Shown piece by piece: positions 5,543-36,380 of a stretch of 64,000 nucleotides of DNA. The notes under the pieces are model-generated. The model saw only the letters and a program-made list of their open reading frames with translations. It was not told where the DNA came from and did not search any database. Origin of the DNA: Thiobacillus sp. (GTDB lineage Bacteria > Pseudomonadota > Gammaproteobacteria > Burkholderiales > Thiobacillaceae); the NCBI GenBank assembly GCA_016124745.1, contig WGNC01000014.1, positions 1-64,000 of the forward strand. Direction: 5' to 3'. A program made the position numbers and the translations under genes. Each line of letters starts with the position of its first letter. Within the stretch, counting starts at the first letter, position 1.

Positions 5543-5557
5543 GCACCACAATCGTTC
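5543..5557. promoter_or_regulatory. Imperfect NtrC-type site upstream of nasT
   Basis: GCAC-N7-GTTC, a perfect left half and one mismatch in the right half of the NtrC consensus dyad GCAC-N7-GTGC. It lies about 68 bp upstream of the -24 element of the nasT promoter, a usual enhancer distance. It is weaker than the four perfect dyads found elsewhere in this window. Confidence 0.4.
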
Positions 5558-5623
5558 AAACCAAACCACCGCTGTCAAACCCGCAGTCTTTATAAGCTTT
5601 TGATTATCAAAGGATCGGGAATC

Positions 5624-5639
5624 TGGCATGGTCCCTGCT
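5624..5639 (+). promoter_or_regulatory. Sigma-54 promoter of nasT
   Basis: TGGCATG-GTCC-CTGCT, with GG at 5625-5626 and GC at 5637-5638 separated by exactly ten bases, matching the RpoN consensus TGGCAYN-N4-YTGCW. Transcription should start near 5650, giving a leader of about 100 bases before nasT that contains an intrinsic terminator. Confidence 0.85.
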
Positions 5640-5700
5640 AAATGTGGGTTGAGTACCCAAACCGCAAGGCCAGGATGCTCAGGCAGTCTCCTCCGATCTA

Positions 5701-5728
5701 GCGGCCTCTCCGGAGGCCGCGTTTTTTT
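5701..5728 (+). terminator. Intrinsic terminator inside the nasT leader
   Basis: Perfect 8-bp stem GCGGCCTC/GAGGCCGC (5701-5708 with 5713-5720), loop TCCG, followed by G and seven T. It lies between the sigma-54 promoter at 5624 and the nasT start at 5753, so transcripts must read through it to express nasT. That placement is typical of leaders controlled by ANTAR antiterminators such as NasT or NasR. It could also end the DUF302 transcript from upstream; both roles are compatible. Confidence 0.85.
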
Positions 5729-5752
5729 GCGCCGTCCGGTTGACCGAAAACC

Positions 5753-6316
5753 ATGCGTGTCCTGATTGTCGAAAACCAGCCCGAGCGTCTTGCGATGCTG
5801 GTGCCCGCACTCGAAGCCGCAGGCTGCGTGGTGACGGCAACGCTCAATTCCGCGCGCAGCCTGGACGTCCAGATTCAGGCCTTGCGTCCCGATGTGGTGA
5901 TCATCGCGCAGGACTCGCCCGACCGCGACACGCTGGAAAACATCTGCGTGGTGAACCAGGACTGTCCGCGTCCGATCGTCATGTTCACGGGGGACGGCAG
6001 CCCCGATGCGATCCGCGCCGCGACCCAGGCCGGGGTGACCTCGTACGTGGTGGACGGGCTCGACCCGGCACGCCTTCGTCCGATTCTCGACGTGGCGATT
6101 TCGCGCTTCGAGGCCTACCAGGCGTTGCACGACCAGCTGGAGCAGACGCGCCTCGAACTCTCGGAACGCAAGCTCATCGACCAGGCCAAGGCCTTGCTCA
6201 TCAAGCAGACCGGTGCGGCGGAACCCGAGGTCTATCGCGAGATGCGGCGCGCAGCGATGGATCGCGGCCTGCGCCTGGTGGACATCGCCAGGCAGATCCT
6301 GCAGAAAACGCGGTGA
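5753..6316 (+). CDS. nasT: NasT-type ANTAR RNA-binding antiterminator
   Basis: A 187-residue response-regulator-like protein: a receiver-like domain (residues 1-120, starting MRVLIVENQPERL) and a C-terminal ANTAR domain (about 125-185, containing LIDQAKALLIKQTG and AMDRGLRLVDIARQIL). In known NasS-NasT systems the nitrate-free sensor NasS holds NasT. Nitrate or nitrite releases NasT, which binds paired hairpins in leader RNA and prevents termination of nitrate-assimilation transcripts. NasS is encoded 301 bases downstream, and two leaders in this window (nasT itself and nrtA) have a terminator in the right place. Phosphorylation is probably not needed in this subfamily. Confidence 0.92.
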   Translation: MRVLIVENQPERLAMLVPALEAAGCVVTATLNSARSLDVQIQALRPDVVIIAQDSPDRDTLENICVVNQDCPRPIVMFTGDGSPDAIRAATQAGVTSYVVDGLDPARLRPILDVAISRFEAYQALHDQLEQTRLELSERKLIDQAKALLIKQTGAAEPEVYREMRRAAMDRGLRLVDIARQILQKTR

Positions 6317-6425: not shown

Positions 6426-6441
6426 AGGCACCTGCATTGCT
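6426..6441 (+). promoter_or_regulatory. Possible sigma-54 promoter before nasS
   Basis: AGGCACC-TGCA-TTGCT has GG (6427-6428) and GC (6439-6440) at the correct ten-base spacing, with one mismatch in the -24 element (A for T). It lies in the otherwise featureless 301-base gap between nasT and nasS (6317-6617). It would give nasS its own nitrogen-regulated start near 6452. I see no terminator in this leader. Confidence 0.5.
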
Positions 6442-6617
6442 GGGTATCGGACCAGGCGCTGCAGCGGCGTGGCGTTGGACGTCCATGCGGACACCCCCTG
6501 GAACCCGAGGTGCTCATTTGCCGGACCGAGTCCATGTGTCGCTGCCTGCCACCCAAGCTGGGCAGGACGGGAACCCGGACCGAATTCCAACCACAACAAC
6601 CGAGCAGACAAGATTTC

Positions 6618-7838
6618 ATGAACGAGACCAAAGGCTTATCCGTTGCTGCCGCCCTCATGGAACTGGTGCCGCCGGGCGTTCGCCAGGGCGCCTGGGCGAC
6701 CGGGTCCGATGCGCCCGAAAAGACTGAAGTGAAGGTCGGGTTCATTCCGCTGACCGACTGTGCCAGCGTGGTGATCGCTGCCGCGAAAGGCTTCGACCGC
6801 AAGTACGGCATCCAGCTGGTCCCCTGCAAGGAGCCGTCCTGGGCTTCGGTGCGCGACAAGACGCTCAGTGGCGTGCTCGACGCAGCCCACGTGCTGTATG
6901 GGCTGGTGCTTGGCGTCAACCTGGGCATCGGCGGTCCGAAGCAGGACATGGCCGTGCTGATGACGCTCAACCGCAACGGCCAGGGCATCTCGCTCGCCCG
7001 GCATCTGCTGCAGAAAGGCGTGAAGGATGGCCCCTCGCTCGCTCGCCTCATCAAGGCTGAGCCGCGCGAATACACCTTCGCCCATACCTTCCCCACCGGC
7101 ACCCACGCGATGTGGCTGTATTACTGGCTGGCGAGCCACGGCATCGACCCGCTCACCGAGATCAGGACGATCACGGTGGCGCCCCCCGACATGGTGGAGA
7201 ACGCGCGCATCGGCAACATGGACGGCTTCTGCGTCGGCGAACCCTGGAATGCGCGCGGCATCCTTGACCAGGTGAGCTTCTCGGTCGCATCGTCGCAGGA
7301 TGTCTGGACCGACCACCCGGAGAAGGTGCTCGGCACGACGGCGGAATTCGTCAGGCGCCATCCCAATACCACGCGCGCCATGATGATGGCGATGCTTGAA
7401 GCCGCCCGCTACATCGACGATCCCGGCAACCGATCCGAAGTCGCCCGGCTGATTGCCACCGAGCCCTATGTCAATTCGCCGCTTGGTGCGATCGAGGGGC
7501 GTTTCCTCGGGCGCTACGAGGACGGGCTCGGCAGGCAATGGGACGACCCGCATGCCCTGCGCTTCTACGACGATGGCAAGGTCCCGTTCCCCTACCTGTC
7601 GGACGCCATGTGGTTCATGACCCAGCACAAGCGCTGGGGACTGTTGAAGGCGCATCCGGACTATCTCGCCGTCGCACGGCAGATCAACCAGATCGAGTTG
7701 TACCGGCAGGCGGCCACGCAAATCCGAACGCCACTGCCCGAATCGGATCTGCGCGCCTCCACGCTGATGGACGGCGCGGTGTGGGACGGCGGGGACCCCG
7801 CCCGCTATGCAGACAGTTTCAGCATTCAGGCCACATAG
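6618..7838 (+). CDS. nasS: NasS nitrate/nitrite sensor (cytoplasmic NrtA-like protein)
   Basis: A 406-residue protein homologous to the nitrate-binding NrtA/CmpA family (VKVGFIPLTDCASVVIAAAKGF near the start; GNMDGFCVGEPWNARG motif; DAMWFMTQHKRWG) but with no export signal. That is the hallmark of NasS, the cytoplasmic sensor that sequesters NasT until nitrate or nitrite binds. I chose ATG 6618 because upstream in-frame codons read as non-coding and the homology begins about 30 residues after this Met. The region before the start lacks a strong Shine-Dalgarno. It pairs with nasT upstream. The separate transporter protein at 17350 has an export signal, which supports the division of roles. Confidence 0.88.
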   Translation: MNETKGLSVAAALMELVPPGVRQGAWATGSDAPEKTEVKVGFIPLTDCASVVIAAAKGFDRKYGIQLVPCKEPSWASVRDKTLSGVLDAAHVLYGLVLGVNLGIGGPKQDMAVLMTLNRNGQGISLARHLLQKGVKDGPSLARLIKAEPREYTFAHTFPTGTHAMWLYYWLASHGIDPLTEIRTITVAPPDMVENARIGNMDGFCVGEPWNARGILDQVSFSVASSQDVWTDHPEKVLGTTAEFVRRHPNTTRAMMMAMLEAARYIDDPGNRSEVARLIATEPYVNSPLGAIEGRFLGRYEDGLGRQWDDPHALRFYDDGKVPFPYLSDAMWFMTQHKRWGLLKAHPDYLAVARQINQIELYRQAATQIRTPLPESDLRASTLMDGAVWDGGDPARYADSFSIQAT

Positions 7839-8077: not shown

Positions 8078-8830
8078 ATGCCACGCCGACGTGAGCCCCG
8101 CCCCGCGCCTGCGCTGGAACTGAAGACCACGCGGCTCGCCGGGATCCAGGTCATCCTCAACAGCGCCGAGCATGCCGCGCTGAATACCCACCTGACCACG
8201 CTGTTTGCCGCGACGCCGGACTTTTTCGGCGGCGAGGCGGCGGTATTCGAATGCGGGCGTCTACCGGCCGATGCGGCGTCACCCGACTGGGCCTGGCTGG
8301 CGCAGGAACTGAAAAGCCGAGGCCTCAACCCTTTTGCCGTGCAGAATGCGTCGCCGGAACTGGCAGCAAGCGCGCTGCAGGCGGGCCTGCTGGTGCTGAA
8401 CGATGCCGCGCCTGCAGTGGCGACGGTCGCGCCCAGCCCCGAGCCTGAACCGGAAGCAGAAGCGCCTGTCGAGCCCCCAGCCGAACTCCCTGTCAGAACG
8501 CCTACGCGCGTCATCGACAAGCCGCTGCGCTCCGGCCAGCGGGTCTACGCGGCGGGCGGCGACATCGTGGTGCTGGCTGCGGTCAACCCGGGCGCCGAAG
8601 TGATCGCCGACGGCAGCATCCATGTGTATGCGCCGCTCAAGGGTCGTGCGCTCGCAGGCGCCCGCGGCGACACCACGGCACGAATTTTCACGACCCACCT
8701 GGAGGCCGAACTGGTCTCGATCGCGGGCGTGTACCGCACCTTTGATAACGCGCTCGATGCCGCTTTGGCGCGCAAACCCGCGCAAATCCGGCTGGCCGAT
8801 GCCAGCCAGATCATTATTGAACCCCTCTAA
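8078..8830 (+). CDS. minC: Septum site-determining protein MinC
   Basis: A 250-residue inhibitor of FtsZ polymerisation, recruited to the membrane by MinD. The N-terminal FtsZ-inhibiting domain (about residues 8-110, with LAGIQVILNSAEHAALNTHL) is joined by a Pro/Glu-rich linker (about 120-145, EPEPEAEAPVEPPAELP) to the C-terminal beta-helix dimer and MinD-binding domain. That domain has the signature RSGQRVYAAGGDIVVLA and VNPGAEVIADGSIHVY. It is the first gene of a minC-minD-minE operon; minD starts 22 bases downstream. No clear Shine-Dalgarno precedes this ATG. Confidence 0.95.
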   Translation: MPRRREPRPAPALELKTTRLAGIQVILNSAEHAALNTHLTTLFAATPDFFGGEAAVFECGRLPADAASPDWAWLAQELKSRGLNPFAVQNASPELAASALQAGLLVLNDAAPAVATVAPSPEPEPEAEAPVEPPAELPVRTPTRVIDKPLRSGQRVYAAGGDIVVLAAVNPGAEVIADGSIHVYAPLKGRALAGARGDTTARIFTTHLEAELVSIAGVYRTFDNALDAALARKPAQIRLADASQIIIEPL

Positions 8831-8852
8831 CCTCCAGCAAAAAGGAAGCTCC

Positions 8853-9668
8853 GTGGCCACCATCATCACTGTCACCTCCGGCAAGGGCGGCGTCGGCAAG
8901 ACCACCACCAGCGCCTCGATCGCCAGCGGCCTTGCCATGCGCGGCTACAAGACCGCGGTGATCGATTTCGACGTCGGCCTGCGCAACCTCGACCTCATCA
9001 TGGGATGCGAGCGCCGCGTGGTGTACGACTTCGTCAACGTGATCCAGGGCGATGCCAACCTGCATCAGGCGCTGATCAAGGACAAGCATGCAGACAACCT
9101 GTTCGTGCTGCCCGCCTCGCAGACGCGCGACAAGGACGCGCTCACCGAGGAAGGCGTCGAGAACGTGCTGAAGGAACTGGCGCACCAGGGCTTCGACTAC
9201 ATCGTCTGCGACTCGCCCGCCGGCATCGAGCACGGTGCGGTGATGGCGCTCACCTTCGCCGACGAGGCCATCGTCGTCACCAACCCGGAAGTGTCGTCGG
9301 TGCGCGACTCCGACCGCATCCTCGGCATCATCCAGTCGAAGAGCCGGCGCGCCATCGAGGGCCGCGAGCCGGTGAAGGAGCACCTGCTGGTCACGCGCTA
9401 TGCGCCCAAGCGCGCGCACGAAGGCGAAATGCTGACCTACACCGACATCCAGGAACTGTTGCGCATCCCGCTCCTGGGCGTCATCCCCGAATCCGATGCG
9501 GTGCTGCACGCGTCCAACCAGGGCGTTCCGGCGATCCATCAAAAAGGCACGCCGGTCGCCGACGCCTACCTGGATGCCATCGGCCGCTTTCTCGGCGAAG
9601 AACATCCGCTGCGTTTCGTCGATTACGAAAAACCCGGCCTGATCAAGCGTCTGTTCGGAGGCAAGTAA
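8853..9668 (+). CDS. minD: Septum site-determining ATPase MinD
   Basis: A 271-residue ParA/MinD-type ATPase that binds the membrane as an ATP dimer and drives pole-to-pole oscillation with MinE. The deviant Walker A motif [11 protein letters not shown] is at residues 10-20, and the switch and Walker B region includes [12 protein letters not shown] and YIVCDSPAG. The C-terminal amphipathic membrane-targeting helix is present ([10 protein letters not shown]). The start is a GTG at 8853, set by the spacing from AAAGGAAG and by the family N-terminus [12 protein letters not shown]; an ATG 231 bases upstream in the same frame lies inside minC. Confidence 0.96.
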
Positions 9669-9669
9669 C

Positions 9670-9924
9670 ATGTCCTGGCTCTCCCTCATATTCGGTGAAA
9701 AGAAATCCACCGCCTCGGTCGCCAAGGAGCGGCTGCAACTCATCATCGCGCACGAACGCGCATGCTCATCGGGCCCTGATTTCCTGCCCGAGCTGCAAAA
9801 GGATCTGGTCGCGGTGATCTCCAAATATTTCCCGGTCAATCCAGACGACATCAAGGTGGGGCTCGAGAAGCAGGGCAATTACGAAGTGCTCGAGGTCAAC
9901 ATCGTGCTGCCCGAGGGGCGCTGA
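9670..9924 (+). CDS. minE: Cell division topological specificity factor MinE
   Basis: An 84-residue protein that stimulates MinD ATPase activity and restricts MinCD to the poles. The N-terminal anti-MinCD helix and membrane-binding segment ([20 protein letters not shown]) and the C-terminal dimer domain ending EVNIVLPE are both present, and the length is normal. It starts one base after the minD stop, so it is translationally coupled. The 206 bases that follow (9925-10130) contain no clear terminator. Confidence 0.95.
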
Positions 9925-10130: not shown

Positions 10131-10913
10131 ATGACTTATTGCGTCGCCATCAAGACCGGCAGCGGATTGATTTTCGCTTCCGACTCGCTCACCAACGCTG
10201 GCATCGACCACGTCAGCACCTATTCCAAGATGCACACGTTCGTGCAGCCGGGCGAGCGCATGTTCGTGTTGCTGGCAGCGGGCAACCTCGCGACGACGCA
10301 AAGCGTGGTGAAACACATGCGGGATGATTGCCAGCAGGGCAAGATGCCCTGCCTGTCCAGTGTGCAGACGATGAGCGAGGCAGTCGATTACGTCGGCACC
10401 ATCTCTGCCGAGGTGCAGCGCACGCAACTGACGCGCGACACCGCCAATACCAATTTCGAGGCCACGTTCATCCTCGGCGGACAGATCGCCGGGCAGGCGC
10501 CCGAAATCTACATGATTTACCCTCAGGGCAACCATATCCACGAGTCGAGTACGCATCCGTTCCTGCAGATCGGCGAAGCCAAGTACGGCAAGCCCATCCT
10601 CGACCGCGTTATCCGCAATGACACCTCGCTGGAACAAGCGGCACGCTGCGCGCTGGTTTCGATCAACTCGACCATCCGTTCCAACCTCACGGTCGGCCCG
10701 CCGGTCGAGTTGCTGATCTATTCCGCCAATGCGCTGGATGGGGGTCGCCACCTGGTATTCGAGGAGGACGACCCCTACTACCACGCACTGGGCGATGCCT
10801 GGAACGAGGGTCTGCGCCAGGCGCTCAACAATCTGCCGCCGTTTGATTGGGAAGGCCAGTTGCAGCCGCTGCAAGTGGTCGCCATCGGCAGCAGCAACCA
10901 GATGCAGGGTTGA
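10131..10913 (+). CDS. anbu: Anbu-type proteasome homologue (Ntn hydrolase)
   Basis: A 260-residue predicted proteasome-type peptidase. The N-terminus MTYCVAIKTGSGLIFASDS matches the Anbu family, in which removal of Met exposes Thr2 as nucleophile; that is why ATG 10131 was chosen over the upstream ATG 10074. Conserved SDSLTNAG and a Lys in YSKMHTF fit the Thr/Asp/Lys arrangement of the fold. Anbu proteins assemble into open helical or ring structures and their substrates are unknown. Elsewhere, Anbu genes co-occur with transglutaminase, ATP-grasp and alpha-E genes, all found in this window at 11684-16929 and 22818-28969. No good sigma-54 promoter was found just upstream; a near-match has GG-N9-GC spacing. 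Confidence 0.88.
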   Translation: MTYCVAIKTGSGLIFASDSLTNAGIDHVSTYSKMHTFVQPGERMFVLLAAGNLATTQSVVKHMRDDCQQGKMPCLSSVQTMSEAVDYVGTISAEVQRTQLTRDTANTNFEATFILGGQIAGQAPEIYMIYPQGNHIHESSTHPFLQIGEAKYGKPILDRVIRNDTSLEQAARCALVSINSTIRSNLTVGPPVELLIYSANALDGGRHLVFEEDDPYYHALGDAWNEGLRQALNNLPPFDWEGQLQPLQVVAIGSSNQMQG

Positions 10914-11444: not shown

Positions 11445-11460
11445 CGCAGGGTCCATGCCA
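11445..11460 (-). promoter_or_regulatory. Sigma-54 promoter of the globin gene
   Basis: On the minus strand TGGCATG-GACC-CTGCG, with GG and GC ten bases apart. The predicted start near 11434 gives a leader of about 100 bases before the globin ATG. The leader contains a dyad with GATGA/TCATC arms at about 11382-11393, but I see no poly-T terminator in it. Confidence 0.75.
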
Positions 11461-11547: not shown

Positions 11548-11562
11548 GCACCGCTGACGTGC
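11548..11562. promoter_or_regulatory. NtrC-type dyad between divergent sigma-54 promoters
   Basis: GCAC-CGCTGAC-GTGC, a perfect match to the GCAC-N7-GTGC core of NtrC enhancer sites. It lies about 75 bp upstream of the transglutaminase -24 element and about 90 bp upstream of the globin -24 element, so one site could serve both directions. Confidence 0.65.
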
Positions 11563-11635: not shown

Positions 11636-11651
11636 TGGCTCATCCCTTGCT
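11636..11651 (+). promoter_or_regulatory. Sigma-54 promoter of the DUF2126 transglutaminase gene
   Basis: TGGCTCA-TCCC-TTGCT has GG (11637-11638) and GC (11649-11650) with the correct ten-base spacing and one mismatch (T for A at the fifth position). The predicted start near 11662 leaves a leader of about 22 bases before ATG 11684. Confidence 0.7.
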
Positions 11652-11683: not shown

Positions 11684-14600
11684 ATGAGCATCCACGTCGC
11701 AATTCGCCACACCACGCGTTACCAATTCGACCGTCGCGTGAGCCTGAGCCCGCATGTGATCCGGCTGCGTCCGGCGCCGCATTCGCGCACCCCCATCCTC
11801 GCCTACACGATGAAGGTCACGCCGGAGAAGCACTTCATCAACTGGCAGCAGGATCCGTTCGGCAACTACCTCGCGCGTCTGGTGTTCCCGGAGCAGACGC
11901 GTGAGTTCTCGGTCGACGTCGAAGTTATCGCCGACATGACGGTGATCAACCCCTTCGATTACTTCATCGAGGAAAGCGCGTTTCACTTCCCCTTCAACTA
12001 CGACCCGGCACTCAAGCGCGAACTCACGCCCTATCTGGAAACCGAGCCCGCGGGAAAACTGCTCGCGGCATGGCTGGCCGAGGTGTCGCTCAAACGGGTG
12101 CACACCAACGATTTTCTGGTGGGGCTCAACCAGCGCCTGCAGAAGGACATCGCCTACACCATCCGCATGGAGCCCGGCATCCAGAGTTGCGAGGAAACGC
12201 TGGGCAAGGCAATCGGCTCGTGCCGCGATACCGCCTGGCTGCTGGTGCAGATCCTGCGCCACCTGGGGCTGGCGGCGCGCTTCGTCTCGGGCTACCTGGT
12301 GCAACTGACGCCCGACGTGAAGTCGCTCGACGGCCCCTCCGGCCCCGAGCACGACTTCACCGACCTGCATGCCTGGGCCGAGGTCTACCTGCCCGGCGCC
12401 GGCTGGGTCGGACTCGACCCGACCTCGGGCCTGTTCGCCGACGAAGGCCACATCCCGCTGGCGGCAACGCCGCAGCCTTCTTCCGCCGCGCCGATCGAGG
12501 GCAGGACCGACAAGTGCGAGGTCGAGTTCAGTTTCAGCAACACGGTCACCCGCATCAAGGAAGACCCGCGCGTCACGCTGCCGTATGCGGATGACGCGTG
12601 GGCGGCGATTCTGGCGCTCGGTCACGCCGTCGACGAGAAGCTGGTGCAGCGAGATGTCCGCCTCACCCACGGCGGCGAACCGACCTTCGTCTCGATCGAC
12701 GACATGGAGGGCGCGCAGTGGAACACCGATGCGCTGGGCGCGCACAAGCGTGAACGCGCCGAAGTGCTGGTGCGGCGCCTGAAGGATCGCATGGCCCCCG
12801 GCTCGCTGCTACACACCGGACAGGGCAAGTGGTATCCGGGCGAGCCGCTGCCGCGCTGGGCGCTGGGAATCTACTGGCGGCGCGACGGTATCCCGGTGTG
12901 GAAAAACCCCGCGCTGCTCGCCGAGGCCTATGCGGACTACGGCCACAGCCACCACGACGCCCGGTTGTTTGCCGAAACGCTGGCGCTGCATCTGGGGCTG
13001 GCCCCGCGCTACGCGCAACCCGCGTATGAGGACGCGCTCGCCGCGCTGCTGCAGGAAGCCGAACTCCCGGCCAACGTCGATGTGCTGACGAAGGGCACAG
13101 ACCATGCCGCGCTGGAAAGCGCCAGCCTGCGCGGAGATCTTGCCAGCAAGCTGTCGCGCGGCCTCAACACGCCGACCGGCTACGTGATTCCGCTGGCCTG
13201 GAGCTGGGCGTCGCAGGACTGGATGAGCGCGCCATGGGAAACCCGGCGCGACCGCCTCTATCTCACGCCGGGCGACTCCCCGATGGGGCTGCGGCTGCCG
13301 CTCGCATCATTGCCCTGGGTAGCGGAAGACGAGCGCGAACCCTCGGTCGAGGTCGATCCTTTCGCGGTGCAGCCGCCGCTGGCCGATTTCCACGGTGAGA
13401 TCGCCGCGCGCTTTTCCAGCGTGGCACCACCCGAGCCGCAGACCCGGATCCAGCCGCAGCACGTCCCGCAAACCGCCATCGTTGAGGTGCCGCGCACCGC
13501 ACTGACGGTCGAGGTGCGCAAGGGTTGCCTCTACATCTTCATGCCGCCGGTGAAGACCCTGGAGCAGTACCTAGACCTGCTTGCCGCGATCGAGGCCACA
13601 GCCGAAAAACTCAAGCTGCCGGTCGCCATCGAAGGCTATACGCCGCCCTCCGATGCCCGCATCGAAAAGCTGATGGTGACGCCCGATCCCGGCGTCATCG
13701 AGGTCAACATCCACCCGGCCCATTCATGGGCGCAACTGGTCGAGACGACCACGACCATTTACGAAGAGGCGCGCCTGTCGCGCCTGGCGGCCGAGAAGTT
13801 CATGCTCGACGGCCGCCATGCCGGCACCGGCGGTGGCAACCACGTCACCCTCGGCGGGGCGACGCCGTCCGACAGTCCCTTCCTGCGCCGCCCCGACCTG
13901 CTGGCCAGCCTCATCACCTACTGGCAGCACCATCCGTCCCTCTCCTACCTGTTCTCCGGTCTCTTCATCGGCCCCACCAGCCAGGCGCCGCGCGTCGACG
14001 AGGGGCGCCCGGAACGGCTGTACGAACTCGAAATCGCCTTCCAGCAGATGCCCGTCGGCGAGACGCCGCAGCCCTGGCTGGTCGACCGCCTGCTGCGCAA
14101 CCTGCTGACCGACCTCACCGGCAACACCCACCGCTCCGAGTTCTGCATCGACAAGCTGTATTCGCCCGACTCGGCCTCGGGGCGGCTGGGGCTGGTCGAA
14201 TTCCGCGCCTACGAGATGCCGCCGCACGCGCGCATGAGCCTGGCGCAGATGCTGCTGCTGCGCGCGCTGGTCGCACGGTTCTGGGACCAGCCGTATCGCA
14301 AGCCGCTGGTGCGCTGGGGCACGCTGCTGCACGACCGCCACATGTTGCCGCATTACCTGTGGGCAGACTTGAAAGACGTGGTCGACGACCTCAACGCTGC
14401 CGGCTTCCCGTTCCAACTCGACTGGTACCGGCCCTTCCTGGAATTCCGCTTCCCACGCTACGGCACCCTGCAGATCGGCGACATCGCGATCGAACTGCGC
14501 ACCGCGATCGAACCCTGGCATGTGCTGGGCGAAGAGAGCACCAGCCAGGGCACGGCGCGTTATGTCGACTCCTCCATCGAACGGGTTCAGGTCAAGGTGA

Positions 14601-17060: not shown

Positions 17061-17075
17061 GCACCATGCTTGTGC
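17061..17075. promoter_or_regulatory. NtrC-type dyad upstream of nrtA
   Basis: GCAC-CATGCTT-GTGC, a perfect GCAC-N7-GTGC dyad 67 bp upstream of the -24 element of the nrtA promoter. This is the expected position for an NtrC enhancer. Confidence 0.7.
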
Positions 17076-17140
17076 GTGACAAGCCCCGAGAACGACAGGC
17101 AGGGTTCTACCAAACCCAGCAAATTCAACGATTCACCATC

Positions 17141-17156
17141 TGGCACGTTAGCTGCT
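17141..17156 (+). promoter_or_regulatory. Sigma-54 promoter of the nrtABD operon
   Basis: TGGCACG-TTAG-CTGCT, a full match to the RpoN consensus with GG (17142-17143) and GC (17154-17155) ten bases apart. The predicted start near 17167 gives a leader of about 180 bases before nrtA. The rest of the 420-base gap 16930-17349 holds the NtrC dyad and the leader terminator. Confidence 0.9.
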
Positions 17157-17224
17157 TATAGCTGCTTGTCACATCCGGCCATTCGGGTCGAAGTGAGAAA
17201 AAGCAAATGTAGTTCTGGACAACG

Positions 17225-17267: not shown

Positions 17268-17349
17268 ATTGTTCCTGCTGCGAGGTGTTCCAGGCGAGAG
17301 GCCCGACAACGGGATTGCACGGATTGATCAACTTGCATGGAGAAACACG

Positions 17350-19799: not shown

Positions 19800-19820
19800 C
19801 CGATCAACAGGGACCCACCC

Positions 19821-29029: not shown

Positions 29030-29045
29030 AGCAGCCTCCGTGCCA
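29030..29045 (-). promoter_or_regulatory. Sigma-54 promoter of the second ATP-grasp operon
   Basis: On the minus strand TGGCACG-GAGG-CTGCT, a full RpoN consensus match with GG and GC ten bases apart. The predicted start near 29019 gives a leader of about 50 bases before ATG 28969. Confidence 0.85.
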
Positions 29046-29141: not shown

Positions 29142-29156
29142 GCACCGGCCTGGTGC
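29142..29156. promoter_or_regulatory. NtrC-type dyad upstream of the second ATP-grasp operon
   Basis: GCACC-GGCCT-GGTGC, a perfect 5+5 inverted repeat and the best NtrC-consensus match in the window. It lies about 98 bp upstream of the -24 element, in the gap just past the nirD stop. Confidence 0.7.
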
Positions 29157-29177: not shown

Positions 29178-29510
29178 TCAGGCAGCGACACGGTCGACCG
29201 CGGCCAGGTCCAGCCACACCCGGCTGCCTTCGACCCTGACCGGAAATTCGCGCGCGCACCCCTGATCGGGGGCCACGGCACAGCCGGATTCGAGTTCGAT
29301 GTTCCAGTTGTGCAGCGGGCAGGTGACCTTTTTGCCGTGCACGATGCCCTGCGACAGCGGCCCGCCCTTGTGCGGACAGCGGTCCTCCAGCGCGAAGATT
29401 TCATCGTCGGCACTGCGGAACACGGCGATGTCGAGTTCGCCGTGGCGCACCACGCGCGCACCGAGCCTAGGGATGTCGTTCACATCCAGGATGTCAATCC
29501 AGTTGTTCAT
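29178..29510 (-). CDS. nirD: Nitrite reductase (NADH) small subunit NirD
   Basis: A 110-residue Rieske-type protein that pairs with NirB in assimilatory reduction of nitrite to ammonium. The [2Fe-2S] ligand motifs are CPHKGG (Cys45, His47) and CPLHNWNIEL (Cys64, His67). The ATG at 29510 gives MNNWIDILDV, which aligns with the family; an ATG five codons upstream is possible. It starts 11 bases after the nirB stop and is the last gene of the nirBD operon. Confidence 0.93.
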   Translation of the reverse strand: MNNWIDILDVNDIPRLGARVVRHGELDIAVFRSADDEIFALEDRCPHKGGPLSQGIVHGKKVTCPLHNWNIELESGCAVAPDQGCAREFPVRVEGSRVWLDLAAVDRVAA

Positions 29511-29521
29511 TGTGTCTTCCT

Positions 29522-32017
29522 TCATGCGGCGACGGTTTCGAATTCATGCTTCAGCTTGCCTTCCCTGGCGCGCTCGACCCACGGATCGCGTTCGACCGAC
29601 AGCGCGAACATCAGACGCTCGTACAGCGCGCGCCGCCCCTCGGCATCGTCGAGGATCTTCTTCTTCACATAGTCGAGGCCGACGCGCTCGATGTAGTGCA
29701 CGGTGCGGTCGAGGTAGCGCGCCTCCTCGCGATAGATCTGGAGGAAGGCGCCCGAGTATTCCAGCACTTCCTGCGGCGTCTTCACCTTGACCAGGAACTG
29801 CGCGACCTCGGTCTTGATGCCGCCATTGCCGCCGACGTAGATCTCCCAGCCGGAATCGACACCGATGATGCCGACGTCCTTGATCGCGACTTCGGCGCAG
29901 TTGCGCGGGCAACCGGACACGGCGAGCTTGACCTTGTGCGGCGCCCACATCTTGAAGAAGGCCTTCTCCAGGTCGATGCCCATCCGGGTCGAATCCTGGG
30001 TGCCGAAGCGGCACCACTCCGCGCCGACGCAGGTTTTGACCGTGCGCAGCGCCTTGCCGTAGGCATGGCCGGAAGGCATGTCGAGATCGGCCCACACCTT
30101 GGGCAGGTCTTCCTTCTTGACCCCGAGCAGGTCGATGCGCTGGCCGCCGGTGACGTGCACGGTGGGAATGTTGTATTTCTCGGCCACGGTGGCGATGCGG
30201 CGCAGCTCGGACGGCGTCGTGTTGCCGCCCCACATGCGCGGGATCACCGAGTAGGTGCCGTCCTTCTGGATGTTCGCGTGGGCGCGCTCGTTGATGAAGC
30301 GCGATTGCGGATCGTCCTCGGCCTCGCCCGGCCAGGCGGAGATCAGGTAATAATTGAGCGCCGGCCGGCAGCTGGCGCAGCCGTTTGGCGTACGCCATTC
30401 CATGAACTCCATTACCTGGGGAATCGTCAGCAGCTTGTTCTGTTTGATCGCCGCGCGCGCCTCCTCGTGCGTGTGGTCGGTGCAGCCGCACATCGACCTG
30501 GTCTTCGGCGTGGCAGAGTAGTCGCCGCCCGCGGTCACCGCCAGGATCTGCTCGACCAGCCCGGTACAGGAGCCGCACGACCCCGACGCCTTGGTGTGTT
30601 TCCTCACATCTTCCAGCGTGAACAGGCCCTTTTCACGGATCGCCTTGACGATGTCGCCCTTGCAGACGCCGTTGCAGCCGCACACTTCCATGTCGTCGGT
30701 CATCGACGCCGCCTTGTTGATGCCCTGGTGGCCGAGGTTGCCGCAGTGGTCCTGACCGAACATCAGGTGGTCACGCAATTCGCTGACGTTCTTGCCGTCG
30801 CGCAGCAGCGAGAAATACCAGGCGCCGTCGACCGTATCGCCGTACATCACGCCGCCTACGAGCTTGTTGTCCTTGATGACGAGCTTCTTGTAGACGCCGC
30901 CGATGGGATCGGAATAGAGGATCGCCTCGGTGCCTTCGCCGCCAGTGAAGTCGCCGGCGGAAAACAGGTCGATGCCGGTGACCTTGAGCTTGGTCGAAGT
31001 CACCGAACCTTCGTAGCGACCGATGCCGTAATGCGCCAGATGGTTGGCGCACACCTTGGCCTGTTCGAACAGCGGTGCAACCAGGCCGTAGGCGATGCCG
31101 CGATGTGCAGCGCATTCGCCGATCGAGTAGATGCGCGGGTCGAAGGTCTGCATGGTGTCGTTGACGACGATGCCGCGGTTGCAGTGCAGGCCGGCCGATT
31201 CGGCCAGCTCGGTGTTGGGGCGGATGCCGACCGCCATCACCACCAGATCGGCGGGGACCTCGTCGCCGTCCTTGAAACGGATGGCGGTGACGCGGTGCTC
31301 GCTCGCCCTCTCCCCAACCCCTCCCCCGCTCGCGGGGGAGGGGCTCGAAACCAGTTCGGCGGTCTGCTTCTGCAGCAGGAATTTCATGCCTTTTGCTTCC
31401 AGGTTTTGCTGCAGCAGGCGCGCAGCAGGCTCGTCGAGCTGGCGCTCCATCAGCCAGGGGGCCAGATGGACCACGGTCACGTCCATGCCGCGCTTCATCA
31501 GGCCGTTGGCGGCCTCCAGTCCGAGCAATCCGCCCCCGATCACGACTGCATGCCGGTACTTGCTGCAAGCGTGGATCATTGCATCGACGTCGGCGATGTC
31601 GCGAAAGCTGATGACGCCTTCGAGGTCGGCGCCGGGTACCGGCAGCATGAAGGGATTGGAACCGGTGGCAAGCAGCAGGCGATCGTATTCGGCGCGGGTG
31701 CCGTCTTCGGCCTCCACAAAGCGCGCGCTGCGGTCGATCTTCACGACCTTCTTGCCCGTATGAAGGGTGATGGCGTTTTCGCTGTACCAGTCGAGCGGGT
31801 TCAGCACGATGTCGTCAACCGTCTGCTCGCCGGCGAGCACCGGCGACAGCAGGATGCGGTTGTAGTTGGGGTAGGGCTCGGCACCGAACACGGTGATGTC
31901 GTAAAGGTCGGGCGCCAGCTTCAGCAGCTCTTCCAGCGTGCGCACCCCGGCCATGCCGTTGCCGACCATGACCAGCTTCATCCTGGGACCGCGTCCCATG
32001 GGCGTACTCATATCCAT
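29522..32017 (-). CDS. nirB: Nitrite reductase (NADH) large subunit NirB
   Basis: An 831-residue sirohaem nitrite reductase. In order: FAD domain (MKLVMVGNGMAGVRTLEELL), NAD(P)H-binding motif (VVIGGGLLGLEAANGL), a BFD-like [2Fe-2S] domain (VCGCNGVCKGDIV and SGSCGSCTGLV), the sirohaem domain with TCVGAEWCRFG, and the cluster/sirohaem motif SGCPRNC. It reduces nitrite to ammonium with NADH in the cytoplasm. ATG 32017 is chosen because GGAG lies seven bases upstream; the reading frame stays open through the leader to 32089. An extra segment (SPSPASGGGVGERAS) between the NAD and [2Fe-2S] regions is encoded by a palindromic repeat at 31306-31345, inserted in frame. It is likely tolerated in a surface loop. 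Confidence 0.95.
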   Translation of the reverse strand: MDMSTPMGRGPRMKLVMVGNGMAGVRTLEELLKLAPDLYDITVFGAEPYPNYNRILLSPVLAGEQTVDDIVLNPLDWYSENAITLHTGKKVVKIDRSARFVEAEDGTRAEYDRLLLATGSNPFMLPVPGADLEGVISFRDIADVDAMIHACSKYRHAVVIGGGLLGLEAANGLMKRGMDVTVVHLAPWLMERQLDEPAARLLQQNLEAKGMKFLLQKQTAELVSSPSPASGGGVGERASEHRVTAIRFKDGDEVPADLVVMAVGIRPNTELAESAGLHCNRGIVVNDTMQTFDPRIYSIGECAAHRGIAYGLVAPLFEQAKVCANHLAHYGIGRYEGSVTSTKLKVTGIDLFSAGDFTGGEGTEAILYSDPIGGVYKKLVIKDNKLVGGVMYGDTVDGAWYFSLLRDGKNVSELRDHLMFGQDHCGNLGHQGINKAASMTDDMEVCGCNGVCKGDIVKAIREKGLFTLEDVRKHTKASGSCGSCTGLVEQILAVTAGGDYSATPKTRSMCGCTDHTHEEARAAIKQNKLLTIPQVMEFMEWRTPNGCASCRPALNYYLISAWPGEAEDDPQSRFINERAHANIQKDGTYSVIPRMWGGNTTPSELRRIATVAEKYNIPTVHVTGGQRIDLLGVKKEDLPKVWADLDMPSGHAYGKALRTVKTCVGAEWCRFGTQDSTRMGIDLEKAFFKMWAPHKVKLAVSGCPRNCAEVAIKDVGIIGVDSGWEIYVGGNGGIKTEVAQFLVKVKTPQEVLEYSGAFLQIYREEARYLDRTVHYIERVGLDYVKKKILDDAEGRRALYERLMFALSVERDPWVERAREGKLKHEFETVAA
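31306..31345. repeat. Palindromic repeat inserted in frame within nirB
   Basis: CCCTCTCCCCAACCCCTCCC followed by the palindrome CTCCCCCG-CTCG-CGGGGGAG (31321-31340) and GGGG. The same element occurs in reverse at 52116-52153. It adds about 14 codons to nirB without breaking the frame. Confidence 0.75.
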
Positions 32018-32037
32018 CTCACCACTCCAGACACATG

Positions 32038-32075
32038 AAAAAAGTGATGACCGAGATACGCCGTTGCATTCGGTC
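32038..32075 (-). terminator. Possible attenuator hairpin in the nirB leader
   Basis: On the minus strand GACCGA and TCGGTC (32070-32075 with 32049-32054) form a 6-bp stem with a 15-base loop that may pair further, then ATCAC and six T (32043-32038). The five-base gap before the T run makes it a weaker terminator than those before nasT and nrtA, but the position between promoter and gene is the same. Confidence 0.45.
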
Positions 32076-32122
32076 CGTCTTGCCGGCATGGACGCGATAC
32101 GCCCAGGCCATGCGTAATGCTT

Positions 32123-32138
32123 AGCAAGCCATGTGCCA
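32123..32138 (-). promoter_or_regulatory. Sigma-54 promoter of nirBD
   Basis: On the minus strand TGGCACA-TGGC-TTGCT, a full consensus match with ten bases between GG and GC. The predicted start is near 32112, giving a leader of about 95 bases before nirB. Confidence 0.85.
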
Positions 32139-32212: not shown

Positions 32213-32227
32213 GCACCAGCGCAGTGC
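32213..32227. promoter_or_regulatory. NtrC-type dyad upstream of nirBD
   Basis: GCAC-CAGCGCA-GTGC, a perfect GCAC-N7-GTGC dyad about 77 bp upstream of the nirB -24 element. It lies just before the 3' end of the ybiB-like gene (stop at 32252). Confidence 0.65.
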
Positions 32228-32251: not shown

Positions 32252-33217
32252 TTATGCGGCCGCCCGGCCGAACCCGCTGATCGCGGTGATGGCCCGTGCC
32301 TGGTTGAGGTCTTCGGTATAGCCGGCGGCGTGCAGGCATACCGCCAGCTGGTTGCGGATCGGCAGCGGCAGCGGCAGGTGATCGCGCATGAGCGCGTCGA
32401 TCCAGGCACCGGTGCCCCGCGCATCCACTGCCGGCAGATTGACGGGGGCAGACACGGTCGACTGCGCCTCGTATACCTGCAGTGCCTGTCCGTCCTGCAC
32501 CAGCACCCTGTCCGGCCGCAGCAGCGGATCGGCAAACGCTTCGCCCTCGCAGCCCTGCAGCAGCAGGGCATGTCCGCCGAGCGCTTGCAGCACGGCCTGC
32601 GTCGACACTATTTCCTCCCTGGACAGCACCGGCGTCACCCGCACCGAGCGCTCGCCCAGCACGTCGGCCAGCGCCGCCAGCTGCGTCATGCAGCCATCGA
32701 TTCCCAGCCGCCCGCGCAGCGCCAGCAAGGAGGCCAGCCCGGGGCTCAACAGGGCCACGGGCGCAAACGCGATCCCGACGTCACGCAGACCGGCATTGAC
32801 CTGCGCCGTGGTGCCGCACGGCATGATGCCCAGCTCGCGCAGCACGTAGGCGGCCGCCGTCCCGCCGCCGCCTTCGAGCACGCCGTGAATGAGCACGGGA
32901 ATGCCGAAGCTTTTCAGCAGCAGGGCCAGCAGCGGGGTAAGGTGCGGATGGCTGCGTACCCCGTGATACGCGGGCAGCACCACCGTGCGGTAAAGGCCAG
33001 CCGGGGCGGAGAACTCAGGCAGGCGCTCGGCCAGCGCCGCGTGCAGGCCGAGCCAGGCATCGAGGCGCGGATCGTGCTGATTGAATGCGACCATGAAGGC
33101 GGCCGTTTCCAGTTCCGGCACGCCGCCGTCGAGCAATGCAGCGCCCAGTGCGCGCGCCTCGACAAAGCCCAGGACGTCGCCGGATTCGATCTGGCGGATT
33201 AGCGTTGCGTAGCTCAT
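32252..33217 (-). CDS. ybiB: YbiB/TrpD2-like protein
   Basis: A 321-residue protein related to anthranilate phosphoribosyltransferase (TrpD2/YbiB group): an N-terminal helical region (MSYATLIRQIESGDVLGFVEARALGAALL), then LIHGVLEGGGGTAAAYVLRELGI and ATL-like GIAFAPVALLSPGLASLLALR. YbiB proteins bind nucleic acids and lack the true TrpD active site; this subgroup often lies beside assimilatory nitrate reductase genes. It begins 31 bases after the nasA stop and is probably in the nasA transcript. Its role in nitrate assimilation is unknown. Confidence 0.8.
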   Translation of the reverse strand: MSYATLIRQIESGDVLGFVEARALGAALLDGGVPELETAAFMVAFNQHDPRLDAWLGLHAALAERLPEFSAPAGLYRTVVLPAYHGVRSHPHLTPLLALLLKSFGIPVLIHGVLEGGGGTAAAYVLRELGIMPCGTTAQVNAGLRDVGIAFAPVALLSPGLASLLALRGRLGIDGCMTQLAALADVLGERSVRVTPVLSREEIVSTQAVLQALGGHALLLQGCEGEAFADPLLRPDRVLVQDGQALQVYEAQSTVSAPVNLPAVDARGTGAWIDALMRDHLPLPLPIRNQLAVCLHAAGYTEDLNQARAITAISGFGRAAA

Positions 33218-33248
33218 GAAATGACGAAGCTCCTTGAAGTGGCGCAGC

Positions 33249-35939
33249 TCATGCCGCCGCCCGGTTCGCGGTGATCAGCCGCTTCAGTTCCGGCACGCAC
33301 GAACCGCAGTCGGTGCCGCATTTCAGCGTGGCCTTGAGTGCTGGAAGATCGGCGCCCGCGGCGATCGCGGCAACGATGTCGGGCTCGGCCACATTGAGGC
33401 AATTGCAGATGACGCGCCCTCGCCCCGCCTTGCCTTCCGGAGGCTGCTCGACCGGCGCCAGCAGCCAGTTCCGCACCTCCATGGCCGAGGCGCCTTCGGC
33501 AATCAGACCCTTGATCCATTCGCTCGCCGCCGTTTCACCCGAGAGCCGGGCGCCGGTGATTACGCCGTTGTCCACCCGTACCTTCTTCCAGATGCCACGA
33601 CGGGCGTCCTGGTAGTTCATGATCAGCAACGGGTCATCCAGCCCGAACGCAGCATCCATTTCCAGCACCAGCGACAGGGGCAGCGGTCCTTCGTTCGCCG
33701 TCTCGAAAACCAGCACGGTGTTGTCGCGCCCGGTAAGTCTTGCGGTGGCGTAATCGAAGCGGCCGATGAAGGCTTGCGCGCGCCGCAGCAAATCGGCGCC
33801 ATCTCCGCGCCGCATGATCGTCCGACGATAGGCAAGGTCCGTCTTTTCCACCTGCACCGCGGCATGCTTGAGTTCGGGTTGTCGCGAAACCGGGTCGACA
33901 GCATCCAGCGTCAGCGCATTGACGCCCATCCCGGCCATGAAGCGGCCGCCCCAGTGCATGGGCATGAAGATCTGGCCACCTCGCAATTCCTCGCTGGCCT
34001 GCACCTTGATGACGAGGCTGCCGCGGCGGCTCTTGACCCGTACCAGGTCGCCGTCGTGCAACTGTCGCCGCTGCATGTCCTGGCTGTTCATCGACAGCAG
34101 CGGCGCCTCGACGTGGGCATAGAGCCGTGGCACCAGCCCGGTGCGGCTCATGCCGTGCCACTGGTCGCGCAGCCGGCCGGTATTCAGATGCAGGGGGAAT
34201 TGCGCGTTGATCGGCTCCGCAGTCGGCCGATACGGCGCATTGTAAAAATGCGCACGGCCATCATGGGTCGGAAACACGCCGTTCTCATACAGGCGAGGCT
34301 TGCCGGTGCTGGCGCCCTCTGGCAACGGCCATTGCTGCGGGCCGGCATCGAGCCTAGCGTAGGTCAGTCCCGTGATGTCGAGGTCGCGGCCACGCGTGGA
34401 CTCGCGATGTTCGTTGAAAATGTCTTGGGGACAGGCATAGGGGAATAGTCCTCTGCCATCCCGCCCCAGCGCATCGCCCAGCTTCCACGCAAACTCGACC
34501 ACCGCTTGGTAGTCGGGGCGCGCCTCGCCCGGCGGCGGCACTGCAGTGCGCATCAGCGAAATACGTCGCTCGGAATTGGTCACGGTGCCGTCGCTCTCGC
34601 CCCAGGTGGCGGCGGGCAACAGCAGGTCGGCGAACTGCACCGTTTCGGTATCGGCGAAGGCTTCCTGCACCACGACGAACGCCGCGGCCCGCAGGGCTTC
34701 CTGCACCCCTTTCTGGTTGGGCAGCGATTGCGCCGGGTTGGTGCAGGAAATCCACAGCGCCTTGATTTCCCCCTTGCGCACCGCCTCGAACATTTCCAGC
34801 GCAGTCTTGCCGGGCTGGTCGGGCACGGCATCCACCCCCCACAGGCGGGCGACTTCGGCGCGGTGTTCCGGATTCTTCATGTCGCGATGCGCCGACAGCA
34901 GATTCGCCATACCGCCGACTTCGCGTCCGCCCATGGCATTGGGCTGCCCGGTGAGCGACAGCGGCGCCGCACCGGGTTTGCCGATATTGCCGGTGGCGAG
35001 ATGCAGGTTGATCAGCGTGGCGTTCTTGTCGACACCGCAGGTGGACTGGTTCAGCCCCTGGCAATACAGCGACAGCGTCGGCCCGGCGGCGAACCAGCGC
35101 GCGGCCAGGATAATATCGGCCGCCGCCACGCCGCAGATGGTGGCGACCTTTTCCGGCGTGTACTCACGCACGGTTTCGCGCAACGCTTCCCAGCCCTCGG
35201 TGTGGGCGGCGATGTAGTCGCGGTCGATGAGTTCCTCCCACAGCATCACGTTCAGCATGGCGTGAAACAGCGCCACGTCCGTGCCCGGCAGGATCGCCAG
35301 GTGCAGGTCGGCTTCCGCAGCGGTATCGGTGCGGCGCGGGTCGACCACGATCAGCTTCTGCTCGGGATTGGCCTTGCGTGCCGCCTCGATGCGGCGAAAC
35401 AGGATGGGATGCGCGAACGCCGTATTCGACCCGGCAACAAACAGCGTGCCCGCGTGGTCGATGTCGTCGTAACAGCCCGGCGGCGCGTCCGCGCCCAGCG
35501 TGGCCTTGTAGCCCGACACTGCGCTCGACATGCAGAGCCGCGAATTGGTGTCGACGTTGTTGGTGCCGATCAGGCCCTTGGCGAGCTTGTTGAATACGTA
35601 GTAATCCTCGGTCAGCAGCTGACCGGAAATGTAGAAGCCCACGGCGTCCGGCCCGTGCTCGCGAATGATCGCGGCAAAGCGCTCGGCCGCATGATCCAGC
35701 GCCGCCTCCCAACTCACCCGCTGACGCGGCAATGACTTGTCGGCTCGCAGCTCCGGATACAGGGCACGGCCGGACGCCTGCGCCGACAGCGCCAGCGTCG
35801 CCCCCTTGGTGCAGAGCTTGCCGAAGTTGGCCGGATGCGCAGGATCGCCTCGCACGCCGGTTATCTTTCCGGCGTCCGCCTCGATCAACACCCCGCAACC
35901 GGTTCCGCAATAACAACAGACAGATGAAACGACAGACAT
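33249..35939 (-). CDS. nasA: Assimilatory nitrate reductase catalytic subunit NasA
   Basis: An 896-residue cytoplasmic molybdopterin (bis-MGD) enzyme that reduces nitrate to nitrite. The N-terminal [4Fe-4S] ligands are Cys8, Cys11, Cys15 and Cys43 (CCYCGTGCG; FGKLCTKG). Then come the molybdopterin domains (VNQ-type GLNQSTCGVDKNATLINLHLATG; NTGRLRDQWHGMSRTG) and a C-terminal BFD-like [2Fe-2S] domain (VICNCLNVAEPD and CGTDCGSCVPEL). No separate NasB reductase gene is present; electrons probably come from ferredoxin/flavodoxin or an unlinked partner. ATG 35939 follows GAGGAG. The leader is only about 14 bases, so NasT attenuation cannot act here. Confidence 0.95.
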   Translation of the reverse strand: MSVVSSVCCYCGTGCGVLIEADAGKITGVRGDPAHPANFGKLCTKGATLALSAQASGRALYPELRADKSLPRQRVSWEAALDHAAERFAAIIREHGPDAVGFYISGQLLTEDYYVFNKLAKGLIGTNNVDTNSRLCMSSAVSGYKATLGADAPPGCYDDIDHAGTLFVAGSNTAFAHPILFRRIEAARKANPEQKLIVVDPRRTDTAAEADLHLAILPGTDVALFHAMLNVMLWEELIDRDYIAAHTEGWEALRETVREYTPEKVATICGVAAADIILAARWFAAGPTLSLYCQGLNQSTCGVDKNATLINLHLATGNIGKPGAAPLSLTGQPNAMGGREVGGMANLLSAHRDMKNPEHRAEVARLWGVDAVPDQPGKTALEMFEAVRKGEIKALWISCTNPAQSLPNQKGVQEALRAAAFVVVQEAFADTETVQFADLLLPAATWGESDGTVTNSERRISLMRTAVPPPGEARPDYQAVVEFAWKLGDALGRDGRGLFPYACPQDIFNEHRESTRGRDLDITGLTYARLDAGPQQWPLPEGASTGKPRLYENGVFPTHDGRAHFYNAPYRPTAEPINAQFPLHLNTGRLRDQWHGMSRTGLVPRLYAHVEAPLLSMNSQDMQRRQLHDGDLVRVKSRRGSLVIKVQASEELRGGQIFMPMHWGGRFMAGMGVNALTLDAVDPVSRQPELKHAAVQVEKTDLAYRRTIMRRGDGADLLRRAQAFIGRFDYATARLTGRDNTVLVFETANEGPLPLSLVLEMDAAFGLDDPLLIMNYQDARRGIWKKVRVDNGVITGARLSGETAASEWIKGLIAEGASAMEVRNWLLAPVEQPPEGKAGRGRVICNCLNVAEPDIVAAIAAGADLPALKATLKCGTDCGSCVPELKRLITANRAAA

Positions 35940-35963
35940 GATGACTCCTCGCTCCTGACCGAC

Positions 35964-35979
35964 AGCAGGGTCTGTGCCA
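35964..35979 (-). promoter_or_regulatory. Sigma-54 promoter of nasA
   Basis: On the minus strand TGGCACA-GACC-CTGCT with exact GG-N10-GC spacing, 25 bases upstream of the nasA ATG. An imperfect NtrC-type site GCACC-AATTT-GCAGC (minus strand) lies at 36076-36090, about 98 bp upstream of the -24 element. Confidence 0.85.
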
Positions 35980-36046
35980 GGACCTCACAACACAATCATT
36001 TCAAGGGTTTGGCTGATTCCAGCCGGGTGAACCACACGCCACAGGC

Positions 36047-36380
36047 TCATGCGCAGTGCATGAGCTGGATGGCATGCTGCAAATTGGTGCGCGGATCAAA
36101 GGGCCGGTCAATGAGGGTAGATTCCAGAAACAACAAGCGATCGGATGAACCTGTATGCGTGCAAACGGCCACACGCCGTCCCTCAGGCGTGACGCCCAAA
36201 CGGGGGGAGTCTGGCCAACGGAGACGTTGGCCGAGCGATCGCTCCCGAGCATTGTGCAACTGCGGATCCAACTGCCCGCAGGGTTGGAAAAGGGGATGCA
36301 GAATCTCGCCGTTTCGCTGCAGCAGTGGGCCGTTTTCCTTGACCCGTCGCGAGGCCGTCCGTATTCTCCAATCACGCTAG
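36047..36380 (-). pseudogene. Remnant of a protein-coding gene, 5' end cut by a repeat element
   Basis: An open frame of about 110 codons ends in TGA at 36047-36049. Its translation has normal composition (for example RVKENGPLLQRNGEILHPLF and SSDRLLFLESTLIDRPFDP), unlike other frames here. There is no good start codon. The coding-like sequence runs up to 36380, exactly where a family B element (36378-36462) begins. This suggests the 5' part was lost or separated by the element. Family not recognised. The fragment also contains the candidate NtrC site for nasA (36076-36090). Confidence 0.4.

Follow-up and report, generated by a model that had tools for sequence, protein, structure and literature searches.

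Predicted nitrogen-limitation control of an ATP-grasp/Alpha-E/transglutaminase/Anbu gene set among nitrate assimilation genes of Thiobacillus, with a candidate oxygenase-like partner

The Anbu/CP-ATP-grasp/Alpha-E/transglutaminase peptide-ligation system was described by Iyer et al. in 2009 (as cited in PMC6376114 and PMC5666114), and this study analyzed a gene set of this kind in a 64,000-nucleotide stretch of a Thiobacillus sp. genome (GCA_016124745.1, contig WGNC01000014.1, positions 1 to 64,000; hereafter, the window). The accessible parts of several papers associate related genes of other species with nitrogen control. In Burkholderia cenocepacia H111, nitrogen-limited cells of an ntrC mutant had 6.0- to 9.4-fold lower levels of the I35_5080-5083 transcripts, and these genes were listed among the common targets of NtrC and sigma-54 (PMC5491218). 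In Pseudomonas putida, nitrogen limitation induced PP_2686-2688, whose operon was called likely NtrB/NtrC controlled (PMC7801951); PP_2685 and PP_2688 were up on nitrate compared with ammonium, and upstream regions of both were used in nitrogen-sensor constructs (PMC8050072). Among the genes with a promoter match in a Bradyrhizobium RpoN study is one for CP_ATPgrasp_1 (PMC13207237), and in a marine metagenome study DUF403/404/407 and Bact_transglu_N were linked with urea domains (PMC3597751). The terms of the system do not occur in the ntrC papers on Pseudomonas stutzeri and Acidovorax citrulli. The accessible part of a Caulobacter NtrC paper reports a transglutaminase homologue, hvyA, the transcript of which rises without NtrC; it was not counted as this system. 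Because NtrC/sigma-54 control has been published for P. putida and B. cenocepacia, the regulatory link is known rather than new, and the new lead is an oxygenase-like partner of the ligase genes.

The window resembles the system of Iyer et al. in carrying CP_ATPgrasp_2, Alpha-E, Bact_transglu_N plus Transglut_core, DUF2126, and Anbu, but it differs in having two ATP-grasp/Alpha-E pairs, in the placement of Anbu and the transglutaminases in separate units among nitrate genes, and in an extra HPPD-like gene (HPPD, 4-hydroxyphenylpyruvate dioxygenase) and ParA-like ATPase. I35_5080-5083 of B. cenocepacia comprise DUF404/407 (ATP-grasp), DUF403 (Alpha-E), a transglutaminase, and a large transglutaminase, whereas no HPPD-like member is named for them in the accessible part of PMC5491218. 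PP_2685-PP_2688 of P. putida likewise include Anbu-like, transglutaminase, and ATP-grasp genes (PMC7801951, PMC8050072), but they form a single compact operon, by locus numbers away from nitrate genes, and the accessible parts of both papers name no HPPD-like gene.

We consider, with a probability of approximately 0.82, that the set belongs with the nitrate and nitrite assimilation genes of the window to a nitrogen-limitation regulon driven by NtrB/NtrC and RpoN; this estimate covers the regulation and the gene set. The predicted regulation finds support in the sequence, in its conservation, and in expression data published for other species, and the assignment of the ATP-grasp operons to the NtrC/sigma-54 regulon is, as a prediction, well supported. 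Domain matches identified the first CP_ATPgrasp_2 protein (22818-24272) and the first Alpha-E protein (24275-25231) on the plus strand, and the second copies of both on the minus strand (27521-28969, with the start taken from the sequence, and 26565-27521, respectively). A transglutaminase plus DUF2126 protein, a putative amidoligase, is encoded at 11684-15058 (plus strand, start taken from the sequence), and the proteasome-like Ntn hydrolase Anbu at 10131-10913 (plus strand). As read by eye, Thr1, Asp17, and Lys32 are present in Anbu, and the Cys, His, and Asp motifs are kept in a small transglutaminase-like protein (16075-16929, plus strand). ATP-grasp copy 2 is 67% identical to copy 1, and the genes of congeners resemble copy 2 in seven of eight cases. 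One genome therefore contains two CP_ATPgrasp and Alpha-E pairs together with transglutaminase-like, DUF2126, and Anbu proteins. The single four-gene operon that is usual for, although not defining of, the system was not found in the window; by strand and spacing, the genes are spread over at least four units. The window has a GC content of 63.6% and is part of our contig C39 in a genome of 3.35 Mb and 48 contigs.

The first-pass annotation of this DNA had claimed nine promoters with GG-N10-GC spacing directly before genes. All nine were present at the claimed positions and scored 12.2-18.7 bits with a sigma-54 matrix of 16 positions, the weights of which were approximate; a threshold of 12 bits was used, with 10 bits for some counts. 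Seven sites match TGGCAY-N5-YTGC exactly, namely those of nasT (5624-5639, plus strand, 16.6 bits), the globin gene (11445-11460, minus strand), nrtA (17141-17156, plus strand), ATP-grasp copy 1 (22758-22773, plus strand), ATP-grasp copy 2 (29030-29045, minus strand), nirB (32123-32138, minus strand), and nasA (35964-35979, minus strand). The other two are sigma-54-like: a site with TGGCTC before the transglutaminase/DUF2126 gene (11636-11651, plus strand, 14.5 bits) and a weak site with AGGCAC before nasS (6426-6441, plus strand), which at 12.2 bits is the lowest of the nine. The seven exact matches in the window compare with a mean of 1.19 and a maximum of 5 in 100 dinucleotide shuffles of the window. 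Between 5543 and 36090, the nine claimed sites were the only matrix matches of at least 12 bits; the rest of the window contained 4 more and the reversed window 5. Across the genome, the exact motif matched 88 times, versus 35 times for the reversed pattern.

To determine whether these promoters are conserved, we scored the 300 bp upstream of ATP-grasp genes in three sets that share members in part, using other genes of the same loci as controls. The class set comprised 74 near-full-length matches of at least 50% identity, 4 of them with an in-frame stop, and left out the own copies, fragments, and the 850-aa (amino acid) fused type; the other sets comprised 81 genes from 80 named loci and 20 from the genus and order. 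A site of at least 12 bits was found in 22/74 class genes (versus 11/754 other genes), 39/81 named genes (versus 19/792), and 15/20 genus and order genes (versus 3/174). When the class set was rerun with 400 bp, the count was 23/74; the controls gave 3 (reverse strand), 1 (reversed sequence), 1 (downstream), and 0 (within genes). Among 35 congeners, several of them incomplete, 8 carried an ATP-grasp gene, and 7 of these 8 scored at least 13.8 bits, the exception being a copy-1-like gene. The enrichment at ATP-grasp and not at the other system genes places the conserved promoter at the ATP-grasp end of the system.

NtrC-type dyads (GCAC-N7-GTGC) were examined as a clue to the activator. Exact dyads, to which no strand is assigned, lie at 11548-11562 (between two divergent promoters), 17061-17075, 29142-29156, and 32213-32227; all four were present as annotated, but at approximately 80-111 bp upstream rather than the 65-100 bp that had been given. 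They lie upstream of five of the nine promoters, as the dyad at 11548 is common to two. The window contained 8 dyads of this form against 2.91 expected, a number reached in 1 of 100 shuffles; 4 of the 8 are located away from the nine promoters. Upstream of the positive ATP-grasp sites, the exact N7 dyad occurred in 4/22, 3/39, and 6/15 cases (class, named, and genus and order sets; this order is kept below), and each of eight other spacings occurred 0 or 1 times. The genome encodes one Sigma54_DBD protein, assigned to rpoN, and one NtrC above its curated cut-off.

The nitrate genes comprise a nasT-like receiver and ANTAR protein (5753-6316, plus strand, Pfam match) and, by domain matches, a nasS-like NMT1_2 protein with an uncertain start (6500-7838, plus strand), an nrtA-nrtB-nrtD-type nitrate ABC transporter (17269-20678, plus strand), a nirBD-like nitrite reductase (29178-32089, minus strand; nirB at 29522-32089 and a Rieske protein at 29178-29525), and a nasA-like assimilatory nitrate reductase (33249-35939, minus strand), with a YbiB-like protein at 32252-33217 (minus strand). 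NasT acts by antitermination. Nine leaders were scanned for terminators and six were folded. Among the nine, a hairpin followed by a T run was found only in the nasT leader (5701-5728, plus strand, a candidate terminator with an 8-bp stem) and in the nrtA leader (17167-17270, plus strand, terminator-like); none was found before either ATP-grasp operon or the DUF2126 gene. The nrtA leader, promoter included (17129-17262, plus strand), also weakly resembles the Pseudomonas RNA P11 of Rfam (22.3 bits against a cut-off of 70, E 0.64).

Two other explanations of the regulation were weighed. The ligase operons might be nitrate-induced members of a NasST regulon rather than general nitrogen-limitation genes. 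They sit between nasT/nrtA and nirB/nasA, and nir/nas genes occur in the fetched stretch around the copy 2 operon in three of eight congeners (L269, L270, and L272). However, because the ligase leaders do not carry terminators of the nasT and nrtA type, these operons appear to be controlled by nitrogen limitation rather than by nitrate. In 154 class and named loci, which extend at most approximately 10 kb per side, no nir/nas linkage beyond the genus was convincing; the two matches were a 25%-identical nirB (L091) and a locus that is apparently from a congener (L236). The B. cenocepacia orthologues are also NtrC dependent under nitrogen limitation, according to the accessible part of PMC5491218. 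The P. putida data do not separate the two kinds of control, because nitrate was compared with ammonium (accessible part of PMC8050072). Nitrate-specific control of the ligase operons is thus disfavored and improbable. The sigma-54 sites might instead be served by NifA, the activator of nitrogen fixation. Another contig, C2, carries genes of nif type (NifH, a nitrogenase-type oxidoreductase, LRV_FeS, and a PAS kinase; the gene at L012 was not identified) with exact sigma-54 motifs. A NifA-type site (TGT-N10-ACA) was sought within 250 bp upstream of each promoter. On C2, seven exact-motif promoters were called upstream of genes, and six of them had such a site (L009 on both strands with one common site, and L012-L015; L008 is the one without), whereas none of the nine window promoters had one and five of them had an exact NtrC-type dyad. 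NtrC is therefore favored over NifA, and we rejected NifA control of the window promoters as very improbable. The common theme appears to be nitrogen limitation, with the proximity to nitrate genes probably local to the genus.

Several observations weigh against the nitrogen-limitation regulon. Genome-wide, heuristic gene calls placed 54 of the 88 exact matches inside genes, 30 upstream of genes, and 4 elsewhere; the globin site was counted inside a gene because its open reading frame (ORF) was over-extended, and the mended placement is 31 upstream and 53 inside. The concern that matches fall inside genes thus holds for the genome, whereas within the window 7/7 lie at promoters. In the class set, 52/74 ATP-grasp genes had no site of at least 12 bits, and sigma-54 control is therefore common but not universal. 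Reverse-strand matches of at least 12 bits occurred upstream of ATP-grasp in 3/74, 12/81, and 2/20 cases; we tentatively attributed these to divergent genes. At 12 bits, no enrichment was observed for Anbu (1/43, 4/28, and 0/9), DUF2126 (1/28, 4/52, and 0/10), or the small transglutaminase (0/12, 1/16, and 0/6), and conservation of the DUF2126 promoter of the window was therefore not borne out. Upstream of the window's Anbu gene, which is without a good sigma-54 site of its own, no match reached 10 bits, and a GG-N9-GC near miss was seen by eye. The promoters of nasT, nasS, nasA, and ATP-grasp copy 1 lack an exact NtrC dyad, and when one mismatch was allowed, the preference for N7 was modest (9 versus at most 7, 13 versus 7, and 12 versus 7). 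In the accessible parts of the published studies, the Anbu gene PP_2685 barely changed in two of three strains (1.12 and 1.45; PMC7801951), operon expression was otherwise unchanged in various conditions (PMC5666114), and neither Anbu peptidase activity nor complexes between the operon proteins were found (PMC6376114). Taken together, the annotated claim of a nitrogen-limitation regulon stands for the ATP-grasp operons through conservation, including in 7/8 congeners, and through published expression in other species, but the joining of the network specifically to nitrate is weakly supported, given the leaders and a linkage that the fetched stretches showed only within the genus; conservation of the motif before orthologues likewise extends to ATP-grasp but not to Anbu or DUF2126.

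Under nitrogen-limitation control, low nitrogen would lead phosphorylated NtrC to act on the GCAC-N7-GTGC dyads and to promote open complex formation at the -24/-12 sites, and the operons would then be transcribed. The terminator leaders of nasT and nrtA are likely targets of NasT antitermination, so that nitrate would gate these two operons, whereas nitrogen shortage by itself would switch on the ligase operons. As to the enzyme steps, the ATP-grasp protein, acting with Alpha-E, probably converts a carboxylate to its acyl phosphate and couples this to an amine; the amide so formed is then probably cleaved or re-routed by Anbu and the transglutaminase-like proteins.

The candidate oxygenase is a 410-aa protein of an unnamed family (25326-26558, minus strand). 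Its gene comes third in the copy 2 operon, and it is a candidate HPPD-like VOC dioxygenase. The protein yielded no match in Pfam (E 0.001) or NCBIfam, and Glyoxalase_4 matched weakly in 4/6 family members (best E 0.022). A profile of the family matched HPPD with E 5.2e-4, an hhalign probability of 31%, and a score of 36.25; after one divergent member was added, these values became E 4.9e-5, 68%, and 43.63. As controls for the score of 43.6, 60 column shuffles reached at most 25.3, the reversed profile 16.5, and ATP-grasp 18.7. The C-terminal half of the protein aligns with HPPD and has in common with it a 2-His-1-Glu metal triad: His225, His313, and Glu371 are invariant in 24/24 family members and align with positions that are invariant in 11/11 sequences of the HPPD search. 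The N-terminal half, in contrast, does not align, and PF14696 matched nowhere in this genome. Because no match to the HPPD family models was significant, we named the protein HPPD-like and not HPPD. A sequence search of the PDB with the protein returned nothing at E 1, and a search with the profile returned one match at E 0.61. Within the set of papers that we searched, none names HPPD, ATP-grasp, and transglutaminase together.

Whether the 410-aa protein belongs to the system was judged from its distribution. In the class-wide sample of 232 genomes, 72 of which hold an ATP-grasp protein, the 410-aa gene was present in 20, and all 20 held ATP-grasp; when our own genome was excluded, the count was 19/19 (hypergeometric probability of 2.8e-11, with shared ancestry ignored). 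In the phylum sample of 397 genomes, it occurred in 7, our own included, and 7/7 held ATP-grasp against a base rate of 232/397. It is located in the same place and is 89-93% identical in seven of the eight congeners, the contig of the eighth stopping inside Alpha-E, and it is near ATP-grasp in 13/154 class and named loci, 1 of which is apparently from a congener. A gene of the system lies within approximately 1.5 kb in 9/19 class genomes and 2/6 phylum genomes (our own excluded). The protein might nevertheless be a chance neighbor outside the system, brought together with it by shared habitat, genome size, or ancestry. It is not within that distance in 10/19 class genomes, 52/72 ATP-grasp genomes lack it, and a sigma-54 score of at least 10 bits was found upstream in only 6/22 of its genes (at least 12 bits in 4/22; 0/22 on the reverse strand and 0/22 in reversed sequence) and in 1/6 of a further six, at 299 bp. 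The complete co-occurrence in the class sample, the adjacency in nearly half of the genomes, and the conserved place in the copy 2 operon argue against mere chance, which we regard as unlikely. A non-enzymatic or different enzymatic role is a stronger competitor: the protein may have a VOC fold but act, for example, as a hydrolase or a binding protein instead of an iron dioxygenase. The missing Pfam and NCBIfam matches, the weak Glyoxalase_4 similarity of family members, the C-terminal-only alignment with its probability of 31-68%, and an AlphaFold model built from six sequences that was unusable (pLDDT 35) fit such a protein, whereas the triad, invariant throughout the family and aligned with invariant HPPD positions, speaks for a dioxygenase. 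We regard a VOC protein of another function as a possibility of some substance, though not the expected one. As a predicted HPPD-like Fe(II) dioxygenase, the protein probably oxidises a pathway substrate or product in this lineage.

Further partners of the system were sought among its neighbors. A ParA/CbiA-like P-loop ATPase (15178-15867, plus strand, domain match) is encoded between the two transglutaminase genes. At a chosen cut-off of E 1e-25, such a protein occurred in 9/232 class genomes, 9/9 of which held ATP-grasp; with our own genome excluded, 8/8 held it (6e-5), and a system gene was within approximately 1.5 kb in 2/8. The ORF clustering of neighbors in 173 loci returned Alpha-E, Anbu, DUF2126, and the transglutaminases as recurrent, together with Peptidase_Mx (40 loci), the 410-aa protein (19), an ABC ATPase (13), and a short protein of unknown function (7). 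A 22-locus cluster was not counted, its representative reading as antisense to Alpha-E. A Peptidase_Mx plus zinc ribbon gene (e.g., L196:7953-9191) is frequent beside ATP-grasp operons. Peptidase_Mx occurred in 44/154 loci and the 410-aa gene in 13/154, with an overlap of 0, although the numbers are small; a Peptidase_Mx search found no match in this genome or in any control genome, which proves no absence. It is conceivable, as a tentative model, that in part of the Proteobacteria the system is oxidative, with the amide- or peptide-like product of the ligase oxidised by the HPPD-like family and a ParA-like ATPase as partner, and that Peptidase_Mx is used elsewhere instead. The purpose of the system is more doubtful still; the most likely one would be the tagging and turnover of peptides or proteins so as to release nitrogen, and the nitrogen-storage or nitrogen-scavenging compound of the first-pass annotation is a hypothetical alternative. 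The nitrogen-limitation promoter conserved before ATP-grasp narrows the role of the system to nitrogen economy, and an associated oxygenase, whose type of chemistry can be predicted, gives a practical way to approach the substrate. If the oxidative model is true, the substrate of the oxygenase would reveal the role of the long-unexplained Anbu system.

Other features of the region were also recorded. The minD and minE genes (8622-9924, plus strand) adjoin Anbu, and min genes are near ATP-grasp in L096, L118, L209, L211, L229, and L272 as well, possibly by chance. Directly before ATP-grasp copy 1, a 279-aa protein without a Pfam or NCBIfam match is encoded at 21733-22572 (plus strand), and one relative of 33% identity precedes an ATP-grasp gene in L264. 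A near-perfect long hairpin at 39481-39534 is probably a terminator or a repeat; a below-cut-off match to mir-26 of Rfam at 39481 was attributed to chance, given the perfect hairpin there. Finally, contig C2 bears nif-type genes with both sigma-54 promoters and NifA-type sites (L009 and L012-L015), which makes nitrogen fixation by this organism probable.

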